The translations under genes and the position numbers were made by a program. A stretch of DNA of 64,000 bases. Origin: Achromobacter spanius (lineage in GTDB: Bacteria; Pseudomonadota; Gammaproteobacteria; Burkholderiales; Burkholderiaceae_B). How positions within the stretch are numbered: the stretch's first letter is position 1; the number at the start of each line of letters is the position of its first letter. Under the pieces are notes generated by a model. The model made no database searches and was not told where the DNA came from. It saw nothing but the letters and a program-made list of their open reading frames with translations. Below, piece by piece: positions 7,592 to 63,666 of this stretch. The DNA is taken from contig NZ_CP121261.1 of assembly GCF_029637605.1 (NCBI RefSeq), positions 1,550,001-1,614,000 on the forward strand, in the 5' to 3' direction.

Positions 7592-8281
7592 TTAAGCCAT
7601 GGCGCGCGAGCGGCGGATATGCAGGTCCAGCCAGCTCAAGCCGCGACTCAGGCTGAAGCACACCAGAAAATAGATGATGGCCAGGATGCCGAACACCTGC
7701 AGCGGCTGGGTCAGCACCAGGTTGTTGACCTGATTGGCCGCGAAGGTCAGCTCGTTGACGCTGATGACGTAGCCCAAGGACGTTTCCTTGATCGTGGAAA
7801 CGAACTGGCTCGTCATGCTGGGCAGCACGTTGAACAGCGCCTGGGGCAGCACCACCTTGCGCATCGTCGTCCAGTAGCCCACGCCCAGCGAACGCGACGC
7901 TTCAATCTGGCCGCGCGGCACCGCCTCGATGCCCGAGCGGATCACCTCGGACAAGTAGGCGCTTTCATAGACCACCAGCGCAAAGATCAGCGTCCAGAAA
8001 CCGCTGACCACCTGCCCCGTCAACTTGGGCACCACGAAGTACGCCCAGAAGATCAGCATCAGCAGCGGCATGCCGCGCACCACGTTGACCAGCGCCTTGC
8101 TGGCGCCCCGCAACGCGCCGAATGGGCTGACTCGGGCCAGCGCGATCAGCAGCGCCAATGGTAAGGACATCAACAGCCCCAGCGCCGCCAGGATCAGCGT
8201 CAGCGCCAGCCCGCCCAAAGGCCCGTTGGGGTATTGGCCGACCAGCAGCGTCGGCCAGTATTGCATCAGCAGATCAAGCAC
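7592..8281 (-). CDS. polar amino-acid ABC transporter permease (HisM/GlnP family)
   Basis: 229 residues with about five membrane spans and the cytoplasmic coupling loop ([20 protein letters not shown]). The start is a GTG at 8281 that overlaps the end of the upstream permease gene by 8 bases, indicating coupled translation. It would form a heterodimeric channel with the neighbouring permease and bind the adjacent ATPase. Confidence 0.92.
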
Positions 8282-8963
8282 CGTGGCCTCCGCGATTCAG
8301 ACGATAACGGGCGTAGATGCGCGACCCCACCGCCATGATCAGGAACGATCCCAGCAGGTACATGATCGTGGCCGCGCCGAAGGTGGCGAAGGTGCGATAG
8401 GTTTCATTTTCAATTTCGCGTGCCTGATAGGTTAGCTCCATCACGCCGATCGCCATCGCAACGCTGGTGTTCTTGAACAGCAGCAACGCGCGGCCAACCA
8501 GCGGCGGAATGGATATGCGCAGCGCCTGCGGCACGATCACGTAACGCATGCATTGCAGGTAGCTTGCGCCCAGCGCGCGCGCCGCCTCGAACTGCGTCCA
8601 GGGTATGGCACGCAAGCCGCTGCGGATGTCTTCGGCGATGTACGCCGCCGAACCGAGCGCCAGCGCAATCGCCGCCAGCGACATTTCCGCGTTGTGATCA
8701 TAGAGCCACAAGCGCAGCCCTTCGGGAAGCAGTTCGGGCATGCCGAAATACCAGAACAACACCTGCACCAACAGCGGCACGTTGCGGTGGTATTCAACAT
8801 AAGCGTCCACCACCCAGCGGCATGGCGCCAGGTTGGTGGCCCGCACCACCACCAGCGTCACCGCGATGGCGAAGGCCATGACCCACGCCACCAGGAACAG
8901 TTGCACGGTAACCACCATGCCGCTGAGCAGCAGTTGGTATTGGGATGCATCTAGCAAGCTCAT
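8274..8963 (-). CDS. polar amino-acid ABC transporter permease (HisQ/GlnP family)
   Basis: 229 residues, the same length as its partner, with hydrophobic spans and the EAA-type loop (GLRAIPWTQFEAARALGASY). It begins at the ATG at 8963, 31 bases after the binding-protein gene, and its 3' end overlaps the next permease. Together the two inner-membrane proteins make the translocation pore of the amino-acid importer. Confidence 0.92.
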   Translation of the reverse strand: MSLLDASQYQLLLSGMVVTVQLFLVAWVMAFAIAVTLVVVRATNLAPCRWVVDAYVEYHRNVPLLVQVLFWYFGMPELLPEGLRLWLYDHNAEMSLAAIALALGSAAYIAEDIRSGLRAIPWTQFEAARALGASYLQCMRYVIVPQALRISIPPLVGRALLLFKNTSVAMAIGVMELTYQAREIENETYRTFATFGAATIMYLLGSFLIMAVGSRIYARYRLNRGGHGA

Positions 8964-59424: not shown

Positions 59425-60681
59425 ATGATCCCTATCCTTCCTGCCCGTCTGCTGCTTGGCGCGTTGGCACTGGCCGTGTTGGCGCCCTGCGCGGCGCCGG
59501 CCGACGCCGCGTTGCGCACCGTCTACCGGGGCACGCTCGAAGGCGCGGGCGATGTGGTGATGGAACTGGATAGCGAGGCGCCTTCGGGCGGCACATTGAC
59601 GGGCCGATATTTCTATCCGAAGCACGGCGTCGACATTCCCTTGAAGGGCACGCCCGAGGCGTTGACCGAACCTCGCCTGTTTCAGGACCTGGCGCAAGCC
59701 GGCATCGATCCCGACACGCCGGCAGCCGCCGCGGCCACCTGGCAAGGGCGGCGCGACGCCGACGGATATCGCGGACGATGGATCGACGCGCGCACGGGCA
59801 GGCAACGTGCGTTCACGCTGCGCCGCGTGGCCCAGTACGATCCCGACGCGCTGGCGCCCGACAGCGTGCAAGCCGTTACCGACGCGATCAGCGGAGGCAC
59901 GGGCAGCGGGATTGATCGCGGCGTTGGCATCCATGCCACCAACGCCCCGTACGAAACCCTGAAGCTTGCGGGTTTCGCCAAACCCGTCGGCCCCGACAGC
60001 GGCACGGGCGCCGTCGCCTACAGGATGTGGCGCGATCCGCGCACCCGGTTCAGCTACCCGCGCCTGAGCCGCCACCCCGACCCGCGAGTGCTGGCGCGCG
60101 TCAACCACCTGCTTGAACAACGCCATTGGCAGATGAATCTGGCCGCGCTGGCTTGCATGGCGTCGGCCTATACCGACGGCAACCCCGCCGCCGGCACGCT
60201 GGGCAGCTATGACGACGAAGCCATCACCGTGCAGTGGCTGTCGCCCGCGCTGATGACTGTGACCGAGTCTGGCAGTCTGTACTGTGGTGGCGCGCATCCC
60301 GACAACCATTTCGAGCCCTACACCTTTGACCTGCTGCAAGGCGGCTATCTGGATTGGAACCGCGTGCTGAATGCATACGTGCCGGGCGACAACGGATGGC
60401 GCCAGGCAAGCCCCGCCCTGCTTGCGCTGGTGGAGAAAGCCCGCGCGCCGCTGGCCGGCGCAACGATCGAGAACCCGGAAGAGGCATCGCTGAAGGAATG
60501 CTCTGACCTTTGGCCCAGCTATCTGGCCTTGGGCACCCAGGCGCCGGGCGTGCTGACCCTGTCGGTCTCGGGCGTGGGCCACGCGATGGGGGTATGTCTG
60601 GGAACGCACGCAACCGTGCCGTTCAAGGACCTGACGCCGTATCTGGCGCCGGGCGGGCAGGCTTATCTGGTTGGTGAATAG
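59425..60681 (+). CDS. exported protein with DUF3298/RsiV-like C-terminal domain
   Basis: 418 residues. A signal peptide (PARLLLGALALAVLAPCAAP) is followed by a beta-rich N-terminal region with RTVYRGTLEGAGDVVMELDS and a later part with GGAHPDNHFEPYTFDLLQGG, the DUF3298 hallmark, and a closing GVGHAMGVCLGTHATVPFKD. RsiV-type domains bind muramidases or act in envelope sensing. There is no transmembrane anti-sigma part, so it is probably a periplasmic protein. It is alone between the MarR gene and the caspase/hydrolase pair. Confidence 0.75.
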   Translation: MIPILPARLLLGALALAVLAPCAAPADAALRTVYRGTLEGAGDVVMELDSEAPSGGTLTGRYFYPKHGVDIPLKGTPEALTEPRLFQDLAQAGIDPDTPAAAAATWQGRRDADGYRGRWIDARTGRQRAFTLRRVAQYDPDALAPDSVQAVTDAISGGTGSGIDRGVGIHATNAPYETLKLAGFAKPVGPDSGTGAVAYRMWRDPRTRFSYPRLSRHPDPRVLARVNHLLEQRHWQMNLAALACMASAYTDGNPAAGTLGSYDDEAITVQWLSPALMTVTESGSLYCGGAHPDNHFEPYTFDLLQGGYLDWNRVLNAYVPGDNGWRQASPALLALVEKARAPLAGATIENPEEASLKECSDLWPSYLALGTQAPGVLTLSVSGVGHAMGVCLGTHATVPFKDLTPYLAPGGQAYLVGE

Positions 60682-60729
60682 CGGGTTGGTGAACAGCGGG
60701 GTGGTCGCATAGCGGACCGAAGCGCTTGA

Positions 60730-61623
60730 TTACGCCATCAGTGCATCATGAATACGGCGGGCAATGACCGGATCATCCAGGTAGCCCTCGATGCCGTGCT
60801 GATTGCCGGTATGGTTGACGACATCGGTCTTGTTTTCGATTGCCGGGTTGACCCGGAAATTTCGCTGGTCCAGCGGGTACAAGGCCACCACATCGTGCGG
60901 GTCCAGCGCGTTGAACCAGTTGCCCACGCAGACTGGATGTGACACGCCACCCAAGCGGTCACGTATGGCCTTGAGGCCCAGCGGCGAGCCCAATGTAATC
61001 AACATAGGCACGCGCCACCCAGCCTGGGCGGTCGTTTGCCGCAGCATCAGATAGGCGACGATGGTGCCCAGAGAATGGGCAACCACCACCTTGTCCGACG
61101 GGTTGTCGAAGGCGAGGCCTACGCCGCGATGAATGACGGTGCGCACGTTGGTCTTGCGCAAATACATATAGACGTCATGGGTCAGCAGGCCGATCAGCGC
61201 GCCGCCGCCCGGCATGTGCTGGTCGATCGTGCGCAGCACCGCGTGCACCCAGCGCCAATTTTGCACGCCACGCTCGATCACCATCGGCTCGCCGTCGCGT
61301 GGGACGTTGCGGTTGATCTCGTCCTCGCCGATTCGGCAGGCCACGATATATTCATCTAGCAAGTCCAGCAGGAAATCAGAAGCGGCGGCGTCGTCTTGCG
61401 CGCCGCGCACGATGATCTTCGCCGCCGAGTGCTCGTCAACACCGCGCACCAAGTCCCTGAGCGTGTCGCCATAAAAGGGGAACCGGATGCGTTCGACAGG
61501 AATGGGCAGGGACAGCCCGGCTTTGCCCAGCCCCCGCTCCCAGGCGGCGATCCACTCGCGCTTGAGCGTCTCGGAGGCTTGATCGTGTTGCGATCGGCCG
61601 TGGATCAGCACCAGCTCTTTCAT
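60730..61623 (-). CDS. alpha/beta-hydrolase coupled to a caspase-fold protein
   Basis: 297 residues from the ATG at 61623, overlapping the caspase-like gene's stop as ATGA. It starts with the lipase/esterase strand and oxyanion loop (KELVLIHGRSQHD). The nucleophile elbow is VVVAHSLGTIV (Ser184), an acid is likely in NALDPHDVV (Asp241 or 244) and a His in NHTGNQHGIEGYL (271 or 276). No signal peptide or membrane segment. An insertion of about 100 residues separates the second strand from the elbow. A lipase, esterase or serine-peptidase activity is plausible; the substrate is unknown. Confidence 0.82.
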   Translation of the reverse strand: MKELVLIHGRSQHDQASETLKREWIAAWERGLGKAGLSLPIPVERIRFPFYGDTLRDLVRGVDEHSAAKIIVRGAQDDAAASDFLLDLLDEYIVACRIGEDEINRNVPRDGEPMVIERGVQNWRWVHAVLRTIDQHMPGGGALIGLLTHDVYMYLRKTNVRTVIHRGVGLAFDNPSDKVVVAHSLGTIVAYLMLRQTTAQAGWRVPMLITLGSPLGLKAIRDRLGGVSHPVCVGNWFNALDPHDVVALYPLDQRNFRVNPAIENKTDVVNHTGNQHGIEGYLDDPVIARRIHDALMA

Positions 61624-63512
61624 AAGGTCGGCGCCGACATCGAGTAGGCCTCGGCCTGTCCGGTGGAAGGCTCCAGCCACCCCGCCAGGCGCTGCATCCC
61701 TTGCGGCGAGTAATGCGCCCACAACTGGCCGGTGTCGTACTGGCGCAGGCTGCGCAATTCGGCCGGTAGCGCATGCCCCAAGGCGTCCATCAAAACCCAT
61801 CCGGTTGAAAGCAAGGGCGTGGCCGGCATGAAATCAGTGGGCGTGTAGGGCCGGCGCAGCAGGTCGCGCGACAGCAATGCCAGATCAAACAGGTGGACGC
61901 CCAAACGCTGGAACATGTAGTCGCGCAGCGCGCGGATACGGTCAATGTCACCGATTTCGCGGTAGGCGTAGGCTGCGTAAAGGGCCAGGGCGGGATCCAG
62001 GAATTGCAGCTTGGCCATGCGCTCGTCCAAGGCCTGCGCGCTGGCCTGGTCGACTTCAAATACGTTTTGCTTGGCGGCTTCCGCCACCACGGCGCGCAGC
62101 CACTGAAGCTGGCGCATATCGTCGGTGTCGGCCTGGGCGTACAGCGGGTCGTAGTGCAGCGCGACGCGTTCTTCGGCGTCCCATCTCAGCGTGGCGACAC
62201 ATCCGTTGAAAAGGGGGACCAGCAAACCCGAGCCGTCGTGCAGCTGCACCAATGCCTGCTTGGGCGTCCAGAGATCCGGGAATTGCCAGGAGTCGTACAC
62301 GACGATGTCCTGGCCGCCGTTCGCGCCGACCGTGCCGAAGCCGGCCTTGATGGCGCCGTCGTACTCCAGGCACGTTACGGTTAGCACCCGTTGCCCGATC
62401 GCGACCAGACCGGATGCCTCCAGCTCGGGAATGCCCAGGCCAAGCGCCCAAGTCGCCTTTTGAAGCACGCCCCGGGCTTGTTCGCCCAGGACATCGAGCG
62501 ACGGAATTTCCAGGTTGGCCTCGTCCAGCGAATGACGAAGCACATGGCTGACCAAGCCTTCCGCCGATAACAGCGACAGGCCGGGCGAACCCAAGGCGGG
62601 CGCACCGGACGGCGCATGCCCGTCTCCTGACGCTCCGTCTTTGCTTGCCTGCCCCTTGGCGTCCGGGAGCCCGCTGTTGGAACCGTCGCCGAAGAACGCA
62701 CCCAGGTTTCCGAGCGGCCCATCGCCCGTCTGGGAAACTCTGGGATCAAATCGCGCCAGCCACGCTTCTTCGTCCGACAGGATGTACGCGTCGGGATCCT
62801 GGTTGATGATCGGAGAAAAGCCATGCGCGAGCAGATACTCGGGCACAAGCGTCTTCAACGCCATTTTCAATGGCCGCGGCCGAATGAAGCCGGCCGTAGC
62901 CACCTGGGGCTTCGCGCCGCGAAGCACCTCGAACAGCACCTCGGTGTAAACGGCCTTGTACACATCGTTGGCGCCAACCCGAACGGGTACTTCCCGTGCC
63001 GGCGCACCCAACCTGGTAGCGTAGAAGACATCGACCCAGGACGAGTCGTTCGCATCATTCGAATTCGGAAATATGCCCGCGCCGTGCAACTTCGTTTGGG
63101 CCACGTCTTTCGACACGGTGCGGCACGCGTCTGAAATGAACACCACATGGCGCACGCTGCCACGTTGCGCCGCTTCATGACTGACTGCCAGGTTGACGGC
63201 GGCATTCAGGTCATTGGGGGCATCCGACAAGTGCCAGAACTCCGCGCGGCCATCCATGGATCCGTGTCCGGAGAAATAAACAATCAACTGCTCCACCGGG
63301 TCCTGCTCAACAAAGTGCCGGACCCAACGGTAAATCTCATGGGTCGTCACGGGTTCGCCCGCACCGTCCGTGATGCGGACGATGCGGTCTGCCGGGATGC
63401 CCTGCCCGCGCGCCCATTGCTCCATCAGATCCACGGCGCTTTCCACCGCTTCCAGCCGGCCCAAGCGGCCGCGCGTTTCGCTGACGCCGATAAGAACGAT
63501 TGCCCGATCCAT
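61620..63512 (-). CDS. caspase-fold (C14) protease with large C-terminal domain
   Basis: 630 residues from the ATG at 63512 with AAGG upstream. The caspase/metacaspase domain is at about 1-250: strand RAIVLIGVSETRG, catalytic His83 in VYFSGHGSMDG and Cys130 in VVFISDACRTV, both intact. A Gly/Ser-rich linker (about 295-335, including GDGSNSGLPDAKGQ) leads to a 290-residue C-terminal region of unknown type (VTCLEYDGAIKAG, FPDLWTPKQALVQL, helical end). There is no signal peptide. Bacterial caspase-like proteins often act as proteolytic switches in conflict or cell-death systems; the coupled hydrolase would be a natural partner or target. Confidence 0.85.
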   Translation of the reverse strand: MDRAIVLIGVSETRGRLGRLEAVESAVDLMEQWARGQGIPADRIVRITDGAGEPVTTHEIYRWVRHFVEQDPVEQLIVYFSGHGSMDGRAEFWHLSDAPNDLNAAVNLAVSHEAAQRGSVRHVVFISDACRTVSKDVAQTKLHGAGIFPNSNDANDSSWVDVFYATRLGAPAREVPVRVGANDVYKAVYTEVLFEVLRGAKPQVATAGFIRPRPLKMALKTLVPEYLLAHGFSPIINQDPDAYILSDEEAWLARFDPRVSQTGDGPLGNLGAFFGDGSNSGLPDAKGQASKDGASGDGHAPSGAPALGSPGLSLLSAEGLVSHVLRHSLDEANLEIPSLDVLGEQARGVLQKATWALGLGIPELEASGLVAIGQRVLTVTCLEYDGAIKAGFGTVGANGGQDIVVYDSWQFPDLWTPKQALVQLHDGSGLLVPLFNGCVATLRWDAEERVALHYDPLYAQADTDDMRQLQWLRAVVAEAAKQNVFEVDQASAQALDERMAKLQFLDPALALYAAYAYREIGDIDRIRALRDYMFQRLGVHLFDLALLSRDLLRRPYTPTDFMPATPLLSTGWVLMDALGHALPAELRSLRQYDTGQLWAHYSPQGMQRLAGWLEPSTGQAEAYSMSAPTL

Positions 63513-63598
63513 GCCGTCTCGCCTTGACGCGCCGTGCGCGCCTGTGCCCAAGCCTTTACCCGGATGCGGGTCTTTCAACCCGGCCGCCGCAAAGGTTA

Positions 63599-63617
63599 CG
63601 CCCGGGGTCGCCGGGCG
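63599..63617 (-). terminator. possible hairpin after the TRAP permease gene
   Basis: CGCCCGG (63599-63605) and CCGGGCG (63611-63617) form a 7-bp stem with a 5-nt loop, 50 bases beyond the TRAP permease stop on the minus strand. There is no real T-run, so this is a weak call. Confidence 0.3.
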
Positions 63618-63666
63618 CACAATGATGCATGGGCACCGGGTAGCACACGCTGCCCCGGCGCTGCGC

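Follow-up and report, generated by a model that had tools for sequence, protein, structure and literature searches.

A caspase-fold protease and an alpha/beta hydrolase (ABH), encoded by neighboring genes of Achromobacter spanius, form a real, widespread and mobile two-enzyme module. Both genes lie in the 64,000-nucleotide stretch analyzed here (bases 1550001-1614000 of the 6.47-Mb genome, contig NZ_CP121261.1; hereafter, the window), in which a first-pass annotation had described a protease and a hydrolase sharing an ATGA overlap and had likened them to conflict or programmed-death systems. The two proteins are almost certainly a functional pair, and the results as a whole are best, if still tentatively, explained by a caspase-activated phospholipase-like effector in a two-gene protease-effector module.

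The caspase and hydrolase genes form an obligate pair

Homologous loci were collected by profile scan, with one genome per species and the best 80 of 106 relatives kept, giving 79 named loci. Scanning contigs with the single caspase protein returned nothing, and scanning with the alignment profile returned the loci; the presence of an ABH nearby was called with purpose-built hidden Markov models. An ABH followed the caspase or was fused to it in 76 of the 79 loci, from nine phyla. In the other three (L057, L065 and L083), the contig ends at the caspase, so that the ABH was present in every testable locus (76/76), and these three were left out of the pairing, export-signal and tree counts. The two genes were on the same strand in all 76. 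The overlap of caspase stop and ABH start by four bases holds in the window as described, and an ATG or GTG was placed accordingly at the caspase stop in 44 of the 76 loci (45/77 with the window). Five loci had a 1-base overlap, nine had other arrangements up to 30 nt and one was fused. In the remaining 17, 31-300 nt separated the caspase from the start of the ABH domain; 16 of these carry twin-arginine (TAT) signals, and there the gap is taken up by a signal peptide.

The two partners were also present and absent together. Among 61 relatives, the genomes with a full-length caspase match and those with a strong ABH match were the same six; in a phylum-wide sample of 398 genomes, they were the same five. 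In one of those five (G304, locus L124), stops interrupt both genes and both partners have decayed. Within the phylum sample, a sixth genome, G275, matched strongly in the caspase domain only, as part of an 1815-aa protein with no ABH of the pair family beside it. Free separation of the two genes was not seen among the genomes searched. The caspase and ABH distance matrices were correlated (mirror-tree r 0.835 over 77 pairs, permutation maximum 0.10), a value to which shared organismal history contributes. The first-pass proposal of a complex or activation chain is in part supported by this pairing and correlation, together with the fusions, accessory distribution and candidate cleavage sites presented below.

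The order of the genes also bears on an inhibitory arrangement, in which the caspase or its C-terminal domain would bind or degrade a toxic hydrolase until infection inactivates the caspase, in the manner of a toxin-antitoxin system. The translational overlap with the caspase first, the constant company of both genes where testable and the breakage of both in G304 are all consistent with such logic. However, natural one-chain fusions and the strict retention of catalytic residues in both partners are more readily reconciled with an activation pair than with an antidote, and we regard the inhibitory arrangement as improbable.

Both active sites are intact

The catalytic dyad of the caspase, His83 within YFSGHG and Cys130 within SDACR, was reported as intact in the first-pass annotation, and the family bears this out: H83 and D128-A129-C130-R131 were invariant in 76 of 76 alignment rows, and GHG and D-A-C-R were kept in all 77 loci, window included. 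The window caspase scored 20.2 bits in one scan and 22.7 in another against Pfam C14 (PF00656, cut-off 21.4), and all 76 scanned caspase members matched C14 at E<=1. Its best NCBIfam match was the EACC1-type model NF047832 (35.3 bits, E 7.9e-9), the best profile matches in the PDB were metacaspase-4 and metacaspase-9, and PADLOC gave a weak generic caspase match (E 2.2e-4) and none for the ABH. Only one other C14 match was found in the same genome, and the 16 kb fetched around it held no ABH of the pair family. In MALT1 and metacaspases, the aspartate of the D-x-C motif lines the S1 pocket. Because D-x-C is invariant in this family, specificity for a basic P1 residue is predicted, and orthocaspases are described in the available part of PMC6426788 as cleaving after positively charged residues.

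Behind the caspase domain and a variable linker, which in the relatives P0109 and P0111 holds a cold-shock domain, the C-terminal region forms an unnamed domain made of a beta-sandwich and a helical part. A profile search of its members returned no recurring Pfam family, in agreement with the earlier failure to assign this region, and the profile scan matched no VMAP family.

In the ABH, the nucleophile Ser184 sits in AHSLG, and Ser184, Asp241, Asp244 and His276 were invariant across 59 ABHs, so the serine elbow noted in the first pass is indeed intact. With its nucleophile elbow, Asp, His and fold, the protein belongs to the alpha/beta hydrolases. The predicted model has a lipase-like fold resembling phospholipase A2 and LCAT, and the enzyme is probably a lipid or ester hydrolase.

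Candidate cleavage sites bracket the variable segment of the hydrolase

The most variable part of the ABH, residues 75-117, is bracketed by a pair of (R/K)-G dipeptides in 187 of 197 caspase-type ABHs. The bracket pair was found in none of the 27 ABHs fused to trypsin-like or M43 proteases and in none of 13 distant ABHs, and so was confined, among the sequences compared, to caspase-linked ABHs. Both sites fall in low-confidence stretches beside a helix in the ABH model. A caspase cleavage site had been suggested within an insertion at about residues 60-165; candidate sites do occur at both ends of the variable segment, and the suggested range was too wide, as it includes conserved parts. From the sequences, the chances that the ABH is the substrate of the caspase appear evenly divided, and cutting at both bracket sites is possible but would be the less expected outcome.

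If so, the C-terminal beta-sandwich/helical domain would hold the caspase in check and trigger it, and the triggered caspase, with its predicted preference for a basic P1 residue, would cleave the partner ABH after R/K73 and R/K118. Cleavage would remove or free a helical lid close to the active site at Ser184. The lipid/ester hydrolase released in this way would damage membrane lipids, so that the cell, probably an infected one, would stop growing or die.

The same bracketed segment could also belong to a constitutive complex in which the caspase does not cleave its partner. Both enzymes would then act together on shared substrates, and the (R/K)-G dipeptides would be structural hinges for the moving lid of the lipase. 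LCAT and lysosomal phospholipase A2, whose folds the ABH model resembles, are lidded enzymes, and the brackets, which characterize a single clade, flank a helical segment on either side. This reading leaves unexplained, however, why a basic residue followed by a glycine is retained precisely where the most variable stretch begins and ends and why ABH relatives are joined to three unrelated protease folds, and we consider it rather unlikely. As a candidate class of lipases, the caspase-ABH family is concrete: the active site is known in both enzymes, there are two single-residue cleavage hypotheses, and the trypsin-paired ABHs lacking the bracket sites are a ready control set.

Related hydrolases are joined to other proteases

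A search that used the ABH portion of fusion protein P0111 as query returned 32 longer proteins containing this ABH type, with caspase domains in 5, trypsin-like domains (precomputed) in 26 and an M43 metalloprotease domain in 1. The ABH was C-terminal in all 32, and the protease domain preceded it in those scanned with Pfam (10/32). Four of the five caspase fusions include the C-terminal domain, and P0242 is without it. In P0111, the start methionine of the ABH is lost. It is kept in P0245, the fusion at locus L081 in a metagenome-assembled genome, and the fusion there may stem from a base error that joined two reading frames. This lipase-like family is therefore joined with several protease folds, like the metallo-beta-lactamase (MBL) nucleases treated in the portion of PMC12799240 at hand.

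Among the distant ABHs, those at L180 and L184 are in an operon with a TPR-S/trypsin protein, with the ABH first, and the one at L189 lies beside a metacaspase; inspection by eye of the other ten loci revealed no protease among the neighbors. The apparent operon at L180:2587-6841 encodes a ThsB-type TIR protein, the distant ABH, the TPR-S/trypsin protein and a second TIR protein, and looks like a TIR-signalled protease-hydrolase system. Separately, the fused caspase-C-terminal-domain-ABH protein at L081:5208-10814 has another caspase gene upstream, and caspase, ABH and trypsin-like genes (the last with an EAD1 match below cut-off) stand in a row at L096:1373-5270 and 7771-8679, with a DO-GTPase1 gene nearby.

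Export signals occur on both partners or on neither

TAT signals, defined as an RR-x-x-hydrophobic signal peptide under a rule loosened after inspection of five exceptions and thus tuned with the data in sight, were present on both proteins in 17 of 77 loci, on neither in 60 and on one only in 0. The stricter first rule gave 12 loci with both, 4 with the caspase only, 1 with the ABH only and 60 with neither. Scanning the threshold gave counts for both, caspase only, ABH only and neither of 17/0/2/58 at 0.3, 17/0/0/60 at 0.8 and 16/1/0/60 at 1.2. The label can be explained by 2 changes on the caspase tree, which indicates one or two joint shifts of both partners rather than 17. The window pair has no TAT signal on either protein. 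With paired signals, both the caspase and its target would be located outside the cytoplasm, and the partial texts searched make no mention of a TAT-exported caspase and target pair.

The pair is accessory and moves between genomes

Within the genus, the pair is accessory, occurring in 6 of 37 genomes (the present one included; in one of the six, the caspase is partial and lies on a short contig). The sister genome G021 has a clean empty site, in which flanks 91-92% identical to those of the window enclose ~45 bp in place of ~2.98 kb. In 12 fetched congeners without the pair, the TRAP gene is present, and what directly follows it is either other flank sequence or a set of other genes. In the named Achromobacter relatives L042-L045, the pair stands behind the same TRAP gene, and identity to the window is 61% for the caspase domain, 51-57% for the C-terminal domain and 69-73% for the ABH, compared with 93% for the end of the TRAP protein. 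This far greater divergence of caspase and ABH points to rapid evolution of the pair or to its replacement at one and the same site. Phyla are mixed on the caspase tree, the nine needing 20 changes against a minimum of 8.

The first-pass annotation had asked about placement in a defence island, and the window locus does not bear this out. By eye, the flanks are ordinary (TRAP transporter genes and others). Zorya-III-like genes (ZorG3; ZorA3, 1761 bits; ZorB3) lie 6-11 kb away, outside the window, at L003:10805-15409 (genome 1619804-1624408). ZorB3 was strong in 24 of 24 genus genomes searched, this one included, so this nominal defence system looks core in the genus, and an island at the window was rejected. 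In other congeners, the same site holds an MFS-like transporter gene (L223 and L229, by eye) or, behind the TRAP gene at L227:1971-3248, a PDC-S59 phage-defence candidate (622.7 bits, 1/24 genus genomes searched), which makes it a variable site and not a clear island.

These surroundings bear on whether the pair might be a stress-triggered unit of lipid or lipoprotein turnover in the envelope, with no role in conflict. Such housekeeping would suit the TAT-signal versions, the ordinary neighbors at the window site and the rarity of conflict genes nearby, with DO-GTPase genes near no more than 3 of 79 loci (L092, L096 and L113) and MoxR or VMAP near 0 of 79, each searched by tblastn with one query. 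It is at odds with the patchy presence in the genus, the clean empty site, the mixing of phyla on the tree and the fast divergence at a fixed site, and is unlikely. Nor is the pair a core, syntenic housekeeping locus in the genus. The likeness to conflict or death systems claimed in the first pass keeps the pairing principle and the accessory spread on its side and loses the island; whether the pair acts in defence or death is, by our inference, evenly balanced. The fullest form of the activation reading, a horizontally moving caspase-activated phospholipase with a lid excised at two (R/K)-G sites, with cytoplasmic and TAT-exported forms (the latter putting a caspase to work in the periplasm) and with lipase relatives re-paired with trypsin-like and metalloproteases, is possible but doubtful as a whole.

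The gene coordinates of the first-pass annotation were correct (Table 1). Longer starts in the list of open reading frames (GTG 63620 and ATG 61800) were rejected as not common to homologues. The convergent neighbor at window 59425-60681 (+) encodes 418 aa with no Pfam match; DNA matching it adjoins the site in G009 and in half (6/12) of the fetched congeners that lack the pair.

Table 1 Features of the caspase-ABH locus (window positions)
Feature	Position	Strand	Details
Caspase-fold protease gene (P0001)	61620..63512	-	630 aa; from family alignment
Caspase domain, residues 1-262	62727..63512	-	H83 codon 63266-63264; D128 63131-63129; C130 63125-63123
Variable linker, residues 263-336	62505..62726	-	cold-shock domain here in P0109 and P0111
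C-terminal domain, residues 337-630	61623..62504	-	beta-sandwich followed by a helical half; no recurring Pfam family
ABH gene (P0002)	60730..61623	-	297 aa; Ser184 codon 61074-61072; Asp241/Asp244; His276 60798-60796
Candidate excisable lid, ABH residues 74-118	61270..61404	-	bracketed by R73-G74 (61407-61402) and R118-G119 (61272-61267)
ATGA stop/start overlap	61620..61623	-	
Accessory cassette, ~2.98 kb	60685..63666	n/a	replaced in sister genome G021

Comparison with known systems

Protease-gasdermin and caspase-gasdermin systems place a protease next to a membrane-directed effector. The pair would resemble them if the ABH acts on lipids, and differs in that the ABH is an enzyme of lipase-like fold and gasdermin a pore former. 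EACC1-associated caspases (NF047832; System 4 of Kaur et al.) share the best NCBIfam match of the caspase domain, but that score lies far below the model cut-off of 140 bits, and the gene upstream in the window looks, by eye, like a TRAP transporter component. In the text of PMC13236601 on LypABC, the words "hydrolase" and "lipase" are absent.

The closest published neighborhood is that of the VMAP/MoxR-vWA ternary systems, which likewise have a caspase gene with an adjoining alpha/beta-hydrolase gene. The accessible portion of Kaur et al. 2020 (PMC7159879) states that caspase-type VMAPs always come with a neighboring alpha/beta-hydrolase gene, suggests that the two operate together and places an ABH akin to those of MoxR-vWA systems among the effectors of a GTPase-centred system. 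The principle of caspase-ABH pairing is thus already known, and the pair, described in the first pass as matching no nameable system, is partly known in this respect; it occurs without VMAP and with another ABH family. There is a link in G275 (L125, L236), where the 1815-aa protein (GAF, receiver and acylphosphatase domains) ends in a Cys-to-Ser copy of the caspase family of the pair and is encoded next to a MoxR-like gene and a VMAP-C caspase gene. The adjoining hydrolase there, however, is of the LCAT family and was unmatched by the ABH model at E 10. VMAP-C had no match in the window genome, though the same model matched in 4 of 12 other genomes, and five fetched regions with VMAP-C matches, from four genomes, held no caspase, C-terminal-domain or ABH match of the pair families at E 10. 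With no MoxR or VMAP gene near the loci by single-query tblastn and a C-terminal domain that matched no VMAP family, membership of the window pair was rejected. Mentions of the stand-alone unit, its ABH family, the C-terminal domain, the TAT form and the bracket sites were not met in the partial texts searched.

In organization, the canu caspase-nuclease and trypsin-nuclease pairs, as far as the excerpt of PMC12799240 describes them, are similar: a protease gene accompanies an effector enzyme gene, one effector family is common to trypsin-like and caspase partners, as for the ABH, conserved residues occur at active-site-blocking insertions, and Ig-like and TPR elements are found in the loci. 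The canu effector, however, is an MBL-fold nuclease, and the window partner, an alpha/beta hydrolase, falls outside that family; the caspase of the pair has another C-terminal domain, some caspase-ABH pairs carry TAT signals, and the pair is known from sequence and models. By this analogy, the best reading of the pair would be a caspase-activated phospholipase comparable to the caspase- or trypsin-activated pro-nucleases.
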